Part shown: positions 51,367 through 64,000 of the stretch, piece by piece
Layout of the letters: each line of letters opens with the position of its first letter
How positions within the stretch are numbered: position 1 is the first letter of the stretch
Assembly: GCF_011044495.1 (NCBI RefSeq)
Contig: NZ_CP049143.1
Location: forward strand, 4,712,001 to 4,776,000
Source: Roseimicrobium sp. ORNL1
GTDB lineage: Bacteria > Verrucomicrobiota > Verrucomicrobiia > Verrucomicrobiales > Verrucomicrobiaceae
DNA length: 64,000 bases
Direction of reading: 5' to 3'
The notes under the pieces: model-generated
Database searches by the model: none
Told to the model about the DNA's origin: nothing
The model's input: only the letters and a program-made list of their open reading frames with translations
Made by a program: the position numbers and the translations under genes

Positions 51367-52902
51367 TCATTCATCAGCCGCACCAGCTGCCGCAGCCTTC
51401 GCCTTCTTGCCCTTGCCTTTCCCTTTGCCACCCTTCTTCTCCGGCGTGGGCTGTCCCTGCTCGGTGTTCGGCGTGGGCATCGGGGCTTTGATTTCCTGCT
51501 GCCAGGTATGCAGCTTTTCAAGCAGCGCCTTTGCCTTCTCCGGCTCCGTCGTGGCGAGGTTCTTCGTTTCGCCGATGTCCTCCTTCAGGTTGTACAGCTC
51601 CACGCGTTTGTCTTCCATGAACTCCATCAGCTTCCAATCACCGCTGATGACCGCGGCCACGGGCGTGGTGCGCCAGGAGTTCTCCCCAGCACCGAGATAG
51701 CCGGGGAAGTGCTGATAAATCGCCTCACGCTTCAGCTTCGCGGTGCCGCTGCCGCTGACATCACCGCCTCGGAAGAGCGGCACGAGGCTTTCACCATCCA
51801 GCACCTGACCCTCGGGAGCCGTTCCCTTCGCAAGCTCCAGCAGCGTGGGGAAGATATCCACGTGAATCGCCGGCACATCGCTGGTGCTGCCGGGCTTCAC
51901 CACCCCGGGCCAGCGCACGACGAAGGGCACGCGCGTGCCGCCTTCATACAGGCTTCCCTTGCCACTGCGCAGCGGGGCATTGTCGGTGACGTCGCCCGCT
52001 TTCTTGATGCCCTCCCGCGCATAGCCACCCACACCACCGTTATCACTGGTGAAGATGAGCACGGTATTCTCCGCGAGCCCCAGCTTCTCCAGCGTCTCCA
52101 TCACACGGCCCACGCTCTCATCCACACTGGCGATCATCGCGGCGTACGTGGGATTGTCGTGCCCACCGGCAGGCGCCTTCGGTTTGAAATGCTCGATGAG
52201 GTCCTTCTTCGCCTCATGAGGTGAATGCACGCCGAAGTGCGGCAGATACAGGAAGAAGGGCTTGTCCTTGTGGCGCGTGATGAAGTCCACTGCCTTGTCC
52301 GTGAGGAAGTCCGCGAGGTACGCACCTTCAGGCACCTCCACCTCGGGATTCGTGTTGAAGTTGAAATGCTTCCCCATGCTCACGATGGCTTCATCAAACC
52401 CACGCTCGCCGGGATGATGCGCGCCATCGTTGCCGAGATGCCATTTGCCGAACATGCCCGTGGCATACCCCGCCGCCTTCATCGACTCAGCCACGGTTTT
52501 CTTCTCCAGCGGCAGTTCATCGACGTTGTCCACCGGACGCAGCGGGCGCGAGCGCCAGTCGAAGCGCTCAATCCCACCCACCGTGTACACGCCGGTGCGC
52601 GGGCCATACTGCCCCGTCATGAGCGCCGCGCGGGTGGGCTGGCAGTTCTGGCACTGATGATAACTGGTGAGCTTCATCCCCTGCTCCGCAAGCCGGTCGA
52701 TGTTCGGCGTCTCGTAGTACTGGCTGCCGAAGCAATGGACATCCGTGTACCCCAGGTCATCCGCCATGATGAAGACGATGTTGGGTGTTGAGGTGGTTGC
52801 AGCAGTGGTGGTGGCTGATGTCGCGAGAGCAGCAGCGCCGGCGAGAAACGCAATGGCGCGGGAGATGGTGGATGCTGCGGTGATGACGAGTCGCTTGAAC
52901 AT
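51367..52902 (-). CDS. Exported sulfatase (arylsulfatase A-like)
   Basis: 511 aa with a Sec signal (AIAFLAGAAALATSATTTA, residues 16-34). The alkaline-phosphatase-fold sulfatase signature is complete: NIVFIMADDLGYTDVH with Asp48 and Asp49 binding Ca, and CQPTRAALMTG with Cys87 in C-x-P-x-R, which is converted to formylglycine. GKWHLG carries the substrate-binding Lys and His. VLIFTSDNGGVG is the second metal site. The C-terminal tail is Lys/Gly/Ala-rich (KKGGKGKGKGKKAKAAAAG). It removes sulfate esters from a polysaccharide or glycoside in the periplasm; the activating enzyme is not in this window. The RAYT element follows its promoter side. Confidence 0.92.
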   Translation of the reverse strand: MFKRLVITAASTISRAIAFLAGAAALATSATTTAATTSTPNIVFIMADDLGYTDVHCFGSQYYETPNIDRLAEQGMKLTSYHQCQNCQPTRAALMTGQYGPRTGVYTVGGIERFDWRSRPLRPVDNVDELPLEKKTVAESMKAAGYATGMFGKWHLGNDGAHHPGERGFDEAIVSMGKHFNFNTNPEVEVPEGAYLADFLTDKAVDFITRHKDKPFFLYLPHFGVHSPHEAKKDLIEHFKPKAPAGGHDNPTYAAMIASVDESVGRVMETLEKLGLAENTVLIFTSDNGGVGGYAREGIKKAGDVTDNAPLRSGKGSLYEGGTRVPFVVRWPGVVKPGSTSDVPAIHVDIFPTLLELAKGTAPEGQVLDGESLVPLFRGGDVSGSGTAKLKREAIYQHFPGYLGAGENSWRTTPVAAVISGDWKLMEFMEDKRVELYNLKEDIGETKNLATTEPEKAKALLEKLHTWQQEIKAPMPTPNTEQGQPTPEKKGGKGKGKGKKAKAAAAGAADE

Positions 52903-53025: not shown

Positions 53026-53898
53026 GGCTTTGCGTCGTGGAGTGCGGGGGCAAGCGCTAAGGCGCGACACCGCTTTGAACGAAGCGACTGGTGTTCCAAC
53101 CGTGTTTGTGTATCCAATACCTTCGATAGCCCTGCGCCTTCACCCTGACCGACATCCCTGATTCCAGAAGCCAGGTTGCTTTTGCGCATCCATGCAATAA
53201 CCTTCACCAATGAGCGCAGGTGAAAAAGTCTCATGGCCACATGCTCCAACGCATCGGCTGTTGGAAGGTGGGGCGTACTTCGTGACTGCGTCCACCTACG
53301 AAAAGCAACATCACTTCCGCGGCAAAGGACGACTTTCACGGCTGCATGACAACCTGCTGCAATGCTGCCTCAACTACGGTTGGAGGCTTCAAGCGTGGGC
53401 AGTCTTCTCCAACCACTACCACTTCGTTGCCCATTGTGAAGACCGTGAATCCGCTTCGAAACTCCCATGGATGCTGGGCCTGCTTCACGAACAAACCACC
53501 AAGCAGGTCAACCATGAGGACGGTGTAGAAGAACGCAAAGTCTGGTACAACTATTGGGACACGTTCCTTAGCAATCAGCGTTCCTACTTTGCGAGGTTAA
53601 ACTACGTCCATCAGAATCCGGTCAAACATGGATTGGTGAAGGTAGCCTCCCAGTATCCTTGGTGCTCGGCATCATGGTTCGAGCGGACATCTTCACCTGC
53701 ACAGGTCAAAGCAATCTACCGATTCCAGACAGGCCGGGTGCAGGTGAAAGACGACTTTGAGCCATCCGTGGACTGGTAGTGCTTTACGGAGCCATTGGGA
53801 TTTGGAACGCGCGGCCAGAGTTGGCACATCAGTCGCTTCGTTCAAAGCGGTGTCGCGCCTTAGCGCTTGCCACCGCACTCCACGACGCAAAGCGTTCC
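53026..53898 (+). mobile_element. RAYT element: transposase gene framed by inverted REP arms
   Basis: The left arm (53026-53090) and right arm (53831-53898) are near-perfect inverted repeats of about 65 bp sharing GCTTTGCGTCGTGGAGTGCG, GCAAGCGCTAAGGCGCGACA and CGCTTTGAACGAAGCGACT. Both have the GCGCTAAGGCGC tip. They enclose one intact RAYT gene. The arms match those of the 238-240 bp elements at 23191-23428 and 25665-25904. The one sequence difference within the core stem is GGGGG against GGTGG. This is the presumed source locus of the family. Confidence 0.88.
53210..53779 (+). CDS. REP-associated tyrosine transposase (RAYT, TnpA-REP)
   Basis: 189 aa. It belongs to the Y1 (HUH) nuclease family: YFVTASTYEKQHHF is strand 1, AWAVFSNHYHFVAHCED contains the H69-x-H71 metal motif, and SYFARLNYVHQNPVKHGLV holds the family-defining tail with the likely nucleophile Tyr132. 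SQYPWCSASW is the conserved RAYT C-terminal block. RAYTs nick single-stranded REP DNA next to the foot tetranucleotide and are thought to spread and maintain REPs and REPINs. The frame is intact, so it is probably functional. It lies in its own pair of REP arms between the sulfatase and cytochrome genes. Confidence 0.92.
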   Translation: MSAGEKVSWPHAPTHRLLEGGAYFVTASTYEKQHHFRGKGRLSRLHDNLLQCCLNYGWRLQAWAVFSNHYHFVAHCEDRESASKLPWMLGLLHEQTTKQVNHEDGVEERKVWYNYWDTFLSNQRSYFARLNYVHQNPVKHGLVKVASQYPWCSASWFERTSSPAQVKAIYRFQTGRVQVKDDFEPSVDW

Positions 53899-59901: not shown

Positions 59902-60022
59902 TCTTAAAACACCCCCCGCCGCTTGTTGAGGTCCTCCGCGGTTCAGTTGGCTTGTAACGCTCACGTCACTTCCATCACTTACCCGCCCCCTTCAACCACA
60001 ATTTCCACCTCCCGTCGCAGCC

Positions 60023-61108
60023 ATGGAAAAGACCTACCAGATTGGTGACCGCAAATTCGTCCTCGACCACGATAAAGCCGAGGCCGCCTACAACGCCAAG
60101 CGCATCATCAACGGTCGCAAGACCGAGGCCTTCAACCTTCTTCCCCTCAAGTACAAGTGGACCTACGACCTGTACAAGAAGATGAAGGCCAACCATTGGG
60201 AGCCGGAGGACATCAGCATGCAGAAGGACGCCGAACAGTGGCGCTCCCCGAATGCGCTGACCGAGACCGAGCGCTGGATCATCATGATGGGCATCGGCTA
60301 CTTCTCCGCTGCCGAGGGCATCGTGGGGGACAATGTCATGCACGTGGTGCGTGAGCTCGTCACCGCCCCTGAGCTGAAGCTCGTGCTGGGTCGCCACGCC
60401 CATGAGGAGAACATCCACGCGGACAGCCTCCTCTACATGATCTCCAGCCTGGGCATCAACCCGCACGAGTGCGAGGCCATGTTCGAGCAGGTGGAGTCCA
60501 TCAAGAAGAAGAACGAATTTGTCACCCGTGTGTCGCACGCCCTGCGCCGCGACCTCGACCTCACGGTGACCGAGAATAAGCGCCTCCTCGCGCAGAATAT
60601 CTTCGTCTTCGGCCAGTGCATGGAGGGCACCCAGTTCTACGGACTCTTCGGGATGATCCTGTCCCTCTACCGGCAGAACAAGTTCCCCGGCATCGGCCAG
60701 ATGTTCCGCTACACGCTGCGGGATGAGAGCAACCACATCGAGCTCTTCCGCAACCTGTTCATGGACCTCGTGGATGAGAACCCCGATATCTGGAGCCCGG
60801 AATTCCGGAGCCAGCTCGTGGACATCATGCGCGAAGCCGTGGCGCTGGAGAAGGAGTTCATCCGCGACTGCCTCCCCGTGGGCGCCGTGGGCCTGAGCGC
60901 CGAGGAATTTGAGCAATACATCGACTACATCGCTGACCGCCGCCTCACCGGCGTGGGCCTGCCCCTGCTCAACCCGGGTATCAAGAACCCGCTCCCATGG
61001 CTCATCGAAGTCATGGACGTGAAGAAGGAGACCAACTTCTTCGAACAGAAGGTCACCGAGTACCAGACTCGTGGCTCCCTTGTCGTCGGCAGCGACGACG
61101 AGTTTTAA
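60023..61108 (+). CDS. nrdB: Class Ic-like ribonucleotide reductase small subunit
   Basis: 361 aa. The metal-carboxylate ligands are all present: Glu98 (SAAEGIVGDN), Glu129 and His132 (HEENIH), Glu201 (MEGTQFYG), Glu235 and His238 (RDESNHIELF). Their spacing (31, 72 and 34 residues) nearly equals that of the Chlamydia trachomatis R2 (31, 73, 34). The first ligand is Glu rather than the Asp of class Ia, and the radical-tyrosine position, four residues after His132, is Leu136 (codon at 60428). Lack of the Tyr plus a Glu first ligand marks class Ic enzymes with a Mn(IV)/Fe(III) cofactor. It generates the radical used by NrdA. NrdR boxes precede it; nrdA follows 108 bp later. Confidence 0.95.
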   Translation: MEKTYQIGDRKFVLDHDKAEAAYNAKRIINGRKTEAFNLLPLKYKWTYDLYKKMKANHWEPEDISMQKDAEQWRSPNALTETERWIIMMGIGYFSAAEGIVGDNVMHVVRELVTAPELKLVLGRHAHEENIHADSLLYMISSLGINPHECEAMFEQVESIKKKNEFVTRVSHALRRDLDLTVTENKRLLAQNIFVFGQCMEGTQFYGLFGMILSLYRQNKFPGIGQMFRYTLRDESNHIELFRNLFMDLVDENPDIWSPEFRSQLVDIMREAVALEKEFIRDCLPVGAVGLSAEEFEQYIDYIADRRLTGVGLPLLNPGIKNPLPWLIEVMDVKKETNFFEQKVTEYQTRGSLVVGSDDEF

Positions 61109-61126
61109 CCAACCACCTTCATCCGG

Positions 61127-61191
61127 CCTGCCGGCCATGGCCCTGGAGAGGGGCGCGCCGGCAGGGATCACCGTTCCCTGCGCCTCTCTCC
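61127..61191 (+). promoter_or_regulatory. Mutually exclusive stem-loops in the nrdB-nrdA spacer
   Basis: Stem 1: CCTGCCGGC (61127-61135) with GCCGGCAGG (61157-61165). Stem 2: GGAGAGGGGCGC (61145-61156) with GCGCCTCTCTCC (61180-61191, one G-T). Stem 3: GCAGGGA (61161-61167) with TCCCTGC (61175-61181). The order could form an H-type pseudoknot or two alternative folds. It ends 25 nt before the nrdA start, so it may regulate nrdA expression. The structure is predicted by eye only. Confidence 0.45.
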
Positions 61192-61216
61192 GCCAACCGA
61201 CACTCCCTCTACAGCC

Positions 61217-64000
61217 ATGATTTCCCGCCACCTGATCGATGAAGACAGGGCGCTCAAGCGCCTTGCCAACCTGTCCAAGGAACAACGCCCGCACTTCGAC
61301 TGGCGCGGCCTTGCCAGCGGCTGCTCCGAGCTCCTGGAGCCCGGCATGGAGGTGGAGGTGGACGGCATGCGCCGCCCCTTCGACATGGGGGAAATCGCGG
61401 ACACGGTGGGCAACGCCCTCGCCGACCTCCAGCTCTCTCGCAAAAAGCAGGATGAAATCTACACCGAGCGGAACCGCGACCTCGTCCGTACCATCGCCCT
61501 CACCGTGGCGGATGAACTCGCCCGCCGCACCAGCGAGACCGAACTGCGGGACCAGCAGGGTGCTCCCGTGCTCCGCTCGGAGGAAATCTACCGCATCATC
61601 GAGCGCACCCTCGTTCGTTATAATCAGCATGACCTTGCACGCAGTGTCGTGACCCGCATGCAGAGCCACATCCCCGTCCATAACACGGCCAATCCCCAGC
61701 CCGTGATGGTTCCGACCAAAGTCATCCGGCGCAACGGTGAAGCCGTGCCGTGGAACCAGAGCAAGATTGAGTCCGCCGTCCGCAAGGCCTTCCTCTCCCT
61801 GGAAGTGAATTCCGAACCCGCCGTGGCCATCGCCGATGCCGTGAGCCGCCGCATGTCCGATGAAGCGCGCCAGTTCGTGCACATCGAGGACCTGCAGGAC
61901 GTGGTGCAGGAGGAGCTCATGCGCCAGGGCCACTACAAGGTGGCCGCCGCCTACATCGCCTACCGCACGCACCGCAAGGAAATGCGCCGCTCCGAGGATG
62001 AGACCTCCCAGCAGCAGCAGCTCGACCTCGGTGGCGATACCCAGCAGGACAGCTTCATCCTCGTGCGCTCCACGGATGGCACCAGCGTCCTCTGGGATGG
62101 CCTGGACCTCCGCAAGCGCATGGAGTATGCGCTGCTCGGCCTCGATGTCTGCCTCACCCGCGAAGAGATCGAAGTGGAACTCCGCCGCTCCTTCGCCGCG
62201 GAAATGTCCAAGGAGGACCTGAAGAAGACCATCATCCTGAATGCGCGCACGCTCATCAGCCATGATGCGGACTTCGCCAAGTTCGCCGCGCGCATCCTGC
62301 TCACCTATATATATGAAGAGGTGCTCGGCTGGGACATCGTGAAGGACGGCATCGAAGCGCTGCCCCTCTTCCATCGCCGCGCCCTGCGCCGCAACCTGCA
62401 GCGTGGTGTGGAGATCGAGCGTCTCGACCCCCGCCTGCTGAACTATGATCTCGACCGCCTCGCCGAAGCCCTCGACCCTGCTGCGGACCTCGACTTCGAC
62501 TTCCTCGGCATCAGCTCCCTCTATGATCGCTACCTGATCGTCGACAAAAAGACCAAGCCCTCCCGCCGCCTCGAAACGCCCCAGCTCTTCTGGATGCGCG
62601 TGGCCATGGGCCTCTTCCTCCAGGAGAAGACCGATGGCGTGACGAAGGTCATCAACCTCTACTCCCTCTACAAGAGCCGCCGCTTCTGCTCCAGCACGCC
62701 GACCCTTTTCAATGCCGGCACGCTGCACTCGCAGCTCTCCTCCTGCTACCTGTACAAGGTGGATGACAACATCGAGTCCATCATGATCCGCGGCATCGCG
62801 GAGAATGCCTTCCTCAGCAAGTGGGCAGGCGGTCTCGGTGGCTCCTGGACTTCCGTGCGCGGCACCGGTGGCTACATCAAGGGCACCAATGGTGAATCCC
62901 AGGGTGTCATCCCCTTCCTCAAGCTGCACAATGACCAGCTCGTGGCCGTGAACCAGGGTGGCAAGCGCAAGGGCTCCGGCTGCGCCTACCTCGAAACGTG
63001 GCACAACGACGTGGAGGACTTCCTTCACCTGCATGACCAGACCGGTGACCTCCGCCGCCGCACGTTCGACATGAACACGGCGAACTGGATTCCCGACCTC
63101 TTCATGAAGCGCATGGAGGCCCGCCAGGAGTGGACGCTCTTCCGCAGCAATGACGTGCCCGAACTGCACGAGCTCTACGGCCGCGCCTTCGAAAGCAAGT
63201 ACGTGGAGTATGAAGAGAAGGTCTCCAAGGGTGAGATCTACGGGAAGAAGATTCCCGCGCTCGACCTGTGGAAGAGCATGCTGAAGCTCCTCTTCCAGAC
63301 CGGCCATCCCTGGATCACCTTCAAGGACCCGTGCAACGTCCGCAGCCCGCAGGATCACGTGGGTGTCATCCACAGCTCAAACCTGTGCACCGAGATCACG
63401 CTGAACACCAGTGCGGATGAAACCGCCGTGTGCAACCTGGGCTCCGTGGTGCTGGAAAATCACCTCACCGACACCGGCGACATCGACCACACCAAGCTGC
63501 GCGAGACCATCCGCATGGCCGTGCGTGCGCTGGACAACGTGATCGACATCAACTTCTACCCGACGGAAGCCGCCCGCCGTGCGAATACCCGCCACCGCCC
63601 GATTGGTCTCGGCGTGATGGGCCTGCAGTACGCGCTCTATCGCAAGGGCATCCCCTTCGGTTCGGAAGAAGGCGTGTCCTTCAACGACGAGATCATGGAA
63701 GCCGTGTGCTGCTACGCCTACGAAGCCTCCAGCGACCTCGCCGCCGAGCGTGGCACCTACTCCAGCTACGAAGGCAGCAAGTGGTCCCGCGGCCTGCTCC
63801 CGCAGGACACCGTGGATCTCCTGGAAGAAGAGCGCGGCGTGCCCATCGAAGTGGCCCGTGGCGGCAAGCTCGACTGGAAGCCGGTGCGCGAGAAGATTGC
63901 CAAGCAGGGCATGCGCAACAGCAACGTCATCGCCATCGCTCCGACCGCGACGATCTCGAACATCATGGGCAGCAGCCCGTGCATCGAGCCGCTGTACAAG
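61217..64000 (+). CDS. nrdA: Ribonucleotide reductase large subunit (partial, runs off window)
   Basis: 928 residues are visible and the frame is open at the window end. The N-terminus appears to hold three ATP-cone domains: one divergent (about residues 45-145, ending EEIYRIIERTLVRYN), one canonical (about 165-255, TKVIRRNGEAVPWNQSKIES) and one at about 275-370 (VRSTDGTSVLWDG ... FAKFAARILL). The catalytic barrel has Cys510 (LSSCYLYKVDD), NLCTEITLN with Asn722, thiyl Cys724 and Glu726, and Cys739 (AVCNLGS). The 724-739 spacing of 15 matches the eukaryotic and chlamydial type, not E. coli (23). It reduces nucleoside diphosphates using the NrdB radical. Confidence 0.96.
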   Translation, partial: MISRHLIDEDRALKRLANLSKEQRPHFDWRGLASGCSELLEPGMEVEVDGMRRPFDMGEIADTVGNALADLQLSRKKQDEIYTERNRDLVRTIALTVADELARRTSETELRDQQGAPVLRSEEIYRIIERTLVRYNQHDLARSVVTRMQSHIPVHNTANPQPVMVPTKVIRRNGEAVPWNQSKIESAVRKAFLSLEVNSEPAVAIADAVSRRMSDEARQFVHIEDLQDVVQEELMRQGHYKVAAAYIAYRTHRKEMRRSEDETSQQQQLDLGGDTQQDSFILVRSTDGTSVLWDGLDLRKRMEYALLGLDVCLTREEIEVELRRSFAAEMSKEDLKKTIILNARTLISHDADFAKFAARILLTYIYEEVLGWDIVKDGIEALPLFHRRALRRNLQRGVEIERLDPRLLNYDLDRLAEALDPAADLDFDFLGISSLYDRYLIVDKKTKPSRRLETPQLFWMRVAMGLFLQEKTDGVTKVINLYSLYKSRRFCSSTPTLFNAGTLHSQLSSCYLYKVDDNIESIMIRGIAENAFLSKWAGGLGGSWTSVRGTGGYIKGTNGESQGVIPFLKLHNDQLVAVNQGGKRKGSGCAYLETWHNDVEDFLHLHDQTGDLRRRTFDMNTANWIPDLFMKRMEARQEWTLFRSNDVPELHELYGRAFESKYVEYEEKVSKGEIYGKKIPALDLWKSMLKLLFQTGHPWITFKDPCNVRSPQDHVGVIHSSNLCTEITLNTSADETAVCNLGSVVLENHLTDTGDIDHTKLRETIRMAVRALDNVIDINFYPTEAARRANTRHRPIGLGVMGLQYALYRKGIPFGSEEGVSFNDEIMEAVCCYAYEASSDLAAERGTYSSYEGSKWSRGLLPQDTVDLLEEERGVPIEVARGGKLDWKPVREKIAKQGMRNSNVIAIAPTATISNIMGSSPCIEPLYK

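Follow-up and report, generated by a model that had tools for sequence, protein, structure and literature searches.

A Leu-type radical-generating subunit of class I ribonucleotide reductase in Roseimicrobium, probably with a metal-based oxidant and in a lineage separate from the chlamydial enzymes

The nrdB gene of Roseimicrobium sp. ORNL1 probably encodes the functional and sole radical-generating subunit of a class I ribonucleotide reductase (RNR) in which the usual site bears no tyrosyl radical and metals serve as the oxidant, with Mn(IV)/Fe(III) as the likeliest pair, in a Leu/Glu/Thr lineage separate from the chlamydial one. The subunit carries all six metal ligands and a conserved relay, has no Tyr at the radical site, is encoded beside nrdA in a genome with no other RNR, and belongs to a clade of its own. 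The metal pair itself would store the oxidising equivalent. The features below are numbered within the window, that is, the whole stretch of 64,000 nucleotides that was analysed; the residues were assigned by alignment, and counts refer to the 133 Leu-type sequences collected.

60023..61108 (+): nrdB, a 361-aa ORF, radical-generating subunit of a class I RNR, Leu/Glu type
60197..60199 (+): Trp59, radical-transfer Trp, 133/133; C. trachomatis Trp51, E. coli Trp48
60314..60316 (+): Glu98, metal ligand 1, Glu in 133/133 clade members
60395..60397 (+): His125, clade-specific second-sphere residue, 132/133; C. trachomatis Gln116, E. coli Trp111
60407..60409 (+): Glu129, metal ligand
60416..60418 (+): His132, metal ligand
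60428..60430 (+): Leu136, radical-Tyr site, 133/133; E. coli Tyr122, C. trachomatis Phe127
60623..60625 (+): Glu201, metal ligand
60644..60646 (+): Leu208, clade-specific, 131/133; C. trachomatis Gly200, E. coli Ser211
60710..60712 (+): Tyr230, electron-relay Tyr, 131/133; C. trachomatis Tyr222
60713..60715 (+): Thr231, four residues N-terminal to ligand Glu235, 133/133; class Id shares the Thr, E. coli Ia and Ic have Ile
60722..60727 (+): Asp234, radical-transfer Asp, and Glu235, metal ligand
60734..60736 (+): His238, metal ligand
61061..61063 (+): Tyr347, C-terminal radical-transfer Tyr, 133/133; C. trachomatis Tyr338, E. coli Tyr356
61217..64000 (+): nrdA, 1115 aa, extending beyond the window end to genome position 4776564, with the full length read from the genome

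The NrdB protein matches Pfam PF00268 (Ribonuc_red_sm, E=5e-70) and NCBIfam NF005550 (340.7 bits, cut-off 309), and its best solved matches are the C. trachomatis R2c structures 1syy/4d8f (269 bits), followed by 6y2n, which is also of the Phe/Glu type (241 bits). In a pairwise alignment with 1syy, the counterparts of E98/E129/H132/L136/E201/E235/H238 are E89/E120/H123/F127/E193/E227/H230. The six-ligand map of the initial annotation, with Leu136 at the radical-Tyr site and Glu as first ligand, is thus borne out by alignment to C. trachomatis R2c and E. coli NrdB and by the presence of Glu98 in every homologue, and its remark that the ligand spacing is close to that of the chlamydial R2 also holds, the gaps being 31/3/69/34/3 against 31/3/70/34/3, with a single difference (69 vs 70). 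The first ligand is Asp in classes Ia and Ib and Glu in classes Ic and Id, and the textbook residue of class Ic at the radical-Tyr site is Phe. The known cofactors behind a Glu first ligand are Mn(IV)/Fe(III) in class Ic and Mn2(IV,III) in class Id (PMC8463856).

The Leu form is strictly maintained. Eighty homologues at 76-82% identity, together with further ones found by scanning 289 genomes from the phylum, make up the 133 Leu-type sequences, almost all from Verrucomicrobiota, and the six ligands, Leu136, Trp59, Asp234, Thr231 and Tyr347 are invariant among them. All six Leu codons are used at position 136 (CTG 51, CTC 46, CTT 13, TTG 13, CTA 6 and TTA 4), and this variety of codons for an invariant residue indicates that the Leu is held by selection, excluding chance or sequencing error. 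The first ligand and the radical site are paired without exception in the sample: Glu occurs with Leu, Phe or, in the class Id type, Tyr, and Asp occurs only with Tyr. One Leu-type NrdAB, 77% identical to the Roseimicrobium sequence, lies on a contig labelled Armatimonadetes (L068), reflecting either transfer or mis-binning. Two related genomes (G116 and G207) have the order nrdB-nrdB'-nrdA (L113:5947-7026 on the plus strand, L114:4399-5493 on the minus strand), and their second protein, NrdB', is 50-53% identical to the Roseimicrobium NrdB and keeps all ligands and Leu136, but its relay Tyr230 (Tyr222 in C. trachomatis) is replaced by Asn; the two NrdBs of these genomes are possibly a beta/beta' pair.

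The adjoining nrdA encodes a large subunit with a single recognised ATP cone (residues 168-255), a barrel domain, the active-site Cys motifs, the YYLR pathway motif and the C-terminal Cys pair. The Roseimicrobium genome (7.96 Mb, 99.8% complete) contains one PF00268 match and one PF02867 match, the latter being the large-subunit search in which a class II RNR would surface, and zero NRDD matches for a class III RNR. A single large-subunit match was likewise found in 31 of the 45 Leu-type genomes searched, 28 of which also have no class III enzyme; leaving Roseimicrobium aside, 27 of the other 44 show no further RNR. Since the Leu-type enzyme is the only RNR in 28/45 genomes, it must supply all reductively made dNTPs there, and it must manage this with no tyrosyl radical in the usual position, so that the sole-RNR status is the strongest evidence that such a radical is dispensable. 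A missing Tyr is at times the mark of an unusual second subunit, apicomplexan R2_e2 being an example (PMC3824934), and NrdB might by analogy be an accessory or degenerate R2 that has lost radical formation; against this, it is the sole NrdB of a genome with a sole RNR, and its ligands and relay residues are under selection, leaving this explanation a negligible probability.

In two one-contig genomes of 0.9 Mb (G036 and G057) the Leu-type RNR is alone and the NrdA frame has about 860 aa, compared with the usual 1100. No close viral homologue of NrdB was found in IMG/VR, and Rfam gave no match around nrdB. An ORF of 1132 aa at 59975-63373 (-), which runs antisense across nrdB and nrdA, was discounted, since it is likely to be an artefact of base composition caused by GC-rich codons. 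Elsewhere in the window, translations read by eye resemble REP-associated tyrosine transposases at 53210-53779 (+) and a sulfatase at 51367-52902 (-).

The trees separate the Leu form from the chlamydial one. They were built with the diagnostic columns taken out, from genome samples covering the phylum Verrucomicrobiota and named plasmid and phage records, with a small reference set from other phyla, and they contain long branches. The Leu/Glu NrdBs form a single clade in all three NrdB trees (support 99/98, 100/100 and 100/99), and the NrdA tree has the same split, with an SH-aLRT of 99 for the Leu-type clade. C. trachomatis R2c groups with the Phe/Glu NrdBs of other Verrucomicrobiota (L116-L125), rhizobia and haloarchaea (99/98, 99/91 and 100/98). 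Constraining the Leu form to join the chlamydial-type Phe form was rejected (AU p = 0.003), as were a single clade of all Glu-ligand sequences in the set (AU p = 0.007) and a clade of the Leu type with class Id (AU p = 0.026); support is weak at the deep node where the Leu and Phe clades meet (bootstrap 81-95, SH-aLRT 15-40). Gene order follows the same division, being nrdB-nrdA in 80/80 Leu-type loci that show nrdA and nrdA-nrdB in every Phe-type locus that shows it, and likewise nrdA-nrdB in C. trachomatis (PMC3019208). By the trees of both subunits and the gene order, the Leu form is a separate clade outside the chlamydial Phe/Glu clade.

The initial annotation had regarded the Leu form as an extension of the chlamydial Mn/Fe subclass to a free-living relative of chlamydiae. 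The trees place the Leu clade apart from chlamydial Ic. Membership of the chlamydial R2c lineage, through descent common to chlamydiae and verrucomicrobia, would agree with C. trachomatis R2c being the best solved match and with both subunits matching NCBIfam models of the wider group, but it is contradicted by the rejected constraints, the NrdA tree and the reversed gene order, and also by the separate occurrence of the chlamydial-type form in other Verrucomicrobiota; it is accordingly considered very improbable. The latter Phe/Glu NrdBs, found at eleven loci (L116-L126, in genomes G072, G008, G152, G042, G266, G078, G281, G120, G046, G258 and G253), have about 40% identity and cluster with C. 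trachomatis R2c, and among free-living bacteria it is these that are the chlamydial enzyme's true relatives. Nested within the Phe/Glu clade are Tyr/Asp NrdBs (L153, L155-L157, L159 and L164) from phages, pseudomonads and other proteobacteria, which may point to a radical Tyr regained there or to several origins of the Phe/Glu form. The polyphyly of R2c is an earlier finding of Lundin et al. 2010, by the account given in PMC3824934.

The surroundings of the metal site also distinguish the Leu clade. Compared with the Phe/Glu R2c proteins and their nested Tyr/Asp relatives, its fixed residues are Thr231 (Ile there; 133/133), His125 (Gln; 132/133) and, each in 131/133, Leu208 (Gly), Gln204 (Phe or Trp), Gly197 (mostly Tyr) and Gly99 (Ser). 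Thr231, Leu208 and His125 correspond to Ile234, Ser211 and Trp111 of E. coli R2, which are situated around Tyr122 and the ligands. The PDB sequences 6sf4 and 8dq4 align with a Thr at ligand 5 minus 4, the same place as Thr231, and in class Id L. blandensis NrdB this residue, Thr294, four before ligand Glu298, holds an unused Tyr (PMC6754362). A Ser occupies the position in the Tyr/Asp group adjoining Id, and a small polar residue at this site is therefore not unique to metal-only enzymes. The proton donor upon cofactor reduction in C. trachomatis R2c is a matter of speculation (PMC11883743), and because such a donor is missing there, our guess is that Thr231 and His125 might take part in a proton path or water pocket near metal 1 and ligand Glu201. 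AlphaFold2 models were too poor for geometry (pLDDT 41 from the single sequence; pLDDT 56 and pTM 0.58 with 33 close relatives).

Thr231 also keeps alive a second choice of metals, a dimanganese Mn2(IV,III) cofactor as in class Id, with an Id-like site reached independently and activated by superoxide or H2O2. The Glu first ligand and the Thr shared with Thr294 of L. blandensis NrdB and with 8dq4 agree with it, as does the fact that class Id needs no NrdI-type partner (PMC8463856); on the other hand, class Id retains a Tyr that is essential in F. johnsoniae (PMC8463856), and the Leu type has neither the Lys at +4 nor the Trp at +7 of class Id (Gly102 and Val105 instead) and was separated from the Id clade by the constraint test, which makes the dimanganese site unlikely, though a live rival. 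Mn/Fe takes first place on two grounds: C. trachomatis R2c is the closest relative that has been characterised, and the counterpart of its Tyr222 is kept. Given that the second sphere differs from that of C. trachomatis at many fixed positions and that Thr231 is as in the Mn2 class Id, the Mn/Fe pair cannot be read from sequence.

With Mn/Fe as the preferred cofactor, the enzyme would work in a class Ic-like manner, in a lineage distinct from the chlamydial branch. The oxidising equivalent would reside on the oxidised metals, most likely Mn(IV)/Fe(III), bound as a pair by the six ligands, and would pass through Trp59/Asp234 and Tyr347 to the pathway tyrosines of NrdA and finally to the active-site Cys. 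Tyr230 and Trp59 would serve the one-electron reduction in cofactor assembly, as Tyr222 of C. trachomatis is used in reducing Mn(IV)/Fe(IV) (PMC4118035). A diiron enzyme with a protein radical elsewhere, for instance at Tyr138, Tyr206 or Tyr93, could draw on several conserved aromatics, among them Tyr93, which is Tyr in 133/133 and Phe in the Phe-type R2c; it is nevertheless judged improbable, given that Tyr138 (129/133) and Tyr206 (130/133) are not invariant, that no new Tyr stands at or beside position 136, and that the Glu first ligand is as in the metal-only subclasses.

The enzyme type is already known in outline, and PMC3824934 cites Hogbom 2010 for R2c variants that have Leu, Ile or Val instead of the Phe. 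In the literature searched, which did not extend to the Hogbom 2010 survey itself, no paper was found to discuss a verrucomicrobial RNR of the Leu type. The present analysis adds the extent of the Leu clade, its sole-RNR status, its separate ancestry, its reversed operon and its second-sphere set. These data suggest more than one loss, or regain, of the Tyr close to where the group originated, although the weak deep node leaves the number of losses uncertain. To our knowledge, only two metal-only initiating cofactors have been characterised in RNR, the Mn/Fe of class Ic and the Mn2 of class Id. A large clade whose Leu-type enzyme is often the sole RNR thus offers a natural third case in which to compare what determines the choice of metals and the transfer of protons, and its fixed Thr and His make the question of the R2c proton donor (PMC11883743) testable. 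More tentatively, the Leu/Glu/Thr lineage could be a third metal-only type of class I RNR, independent of Ic and Id, having a distinct proton path through Thr231 and His125, possibly another metal pair, and a role as sole RNR of many free-living Verrucomicrobiota.

Among the known systems, some can be set aside by their residues. Class Ia requires an Asp first ligand and a radical Tyr, and is ruled out by Glu98 and Leu136. Class Ie, in which the metal carboxylates are lost and a modified Tyr radical is used, is ruled out by the four Glu and two His ligands and by the absence of the Tyr. The R2lox proteins share the Glu first ligand and have an Mn/Fe site, but they lack a C-terminal Tyr and have Ala, a small residue, where NrdB has Phe205, their structures match NrdB at only about 27-32 bits, and Tyr347 and the adjacent nrdA also exclude this assignment. 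The Tyr/Asp NrdBs of pseudomonads and relatives, at about 36-41% identity, have the six ligands and relay residues in common with NrdB, but carry the Asp ligand and the radical Tyr, and their place in the trees is inside the Phe/Glu clade, apart from the Leu clade.

Class Ic and class Id are the closest comparisons. With C. trachomatis R2c (1syy, 4d8f, 4m1i), NrdB shares the six ligands, the Glu first ligand, the absence of a Tyr at the radical site, Phe205 at the F197 position and the equivalents of Tyr222, Trp51, Asp226 and Tyr338; it differs in having Leu136 for Phe127 and Thr231/His125/Leu208/Gln204/Gly197/Val121/Gly99 for Ile223/Gln116/Gly200/Phe196/Tyr189/Tyr112/Ser90, in the separate clade and in the order nrdB-nrdA instead of nrdA-nrdB. 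The class Ic assignment of the initial annotation stands as regards the replaced radical Tyr, the Glu/Leu pairing, the Tyr230/Trp59/Tyr347 relay and the R2c proteins as nearest solved relatives, but fails as regards descent (AU p = 0.003 and 0.007) and a second sphere that is unlike that of C. trachomatis and includes a class Id-typical Thr. With the class Id NrdBi proteins (L. blandensis 6sf4/5olk; 8dq4 and 6cwo), the common features are the Glu first ligand, the Thr four residues before ligand 5 and, if the reasoning above is right, a metal-only oxidant. In contrast to their conserved Tyr, with its Tyr/Glu pairing, NrdB has Leu136, and after the first ligand it has Val105 and Gly102, where the class Id signature has Trp at +7 and, for the subgroup that has been studied, Lys at +4 (PMC6754362); it also keeps the radical-transfer Asp, its NrdA has an ATP cone, and the two do not form one clade (AU p = 0.026). 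Judged by its residues and its place in the trees, NrdB mixes features of classes Ic and Id and belongs to neither clade.
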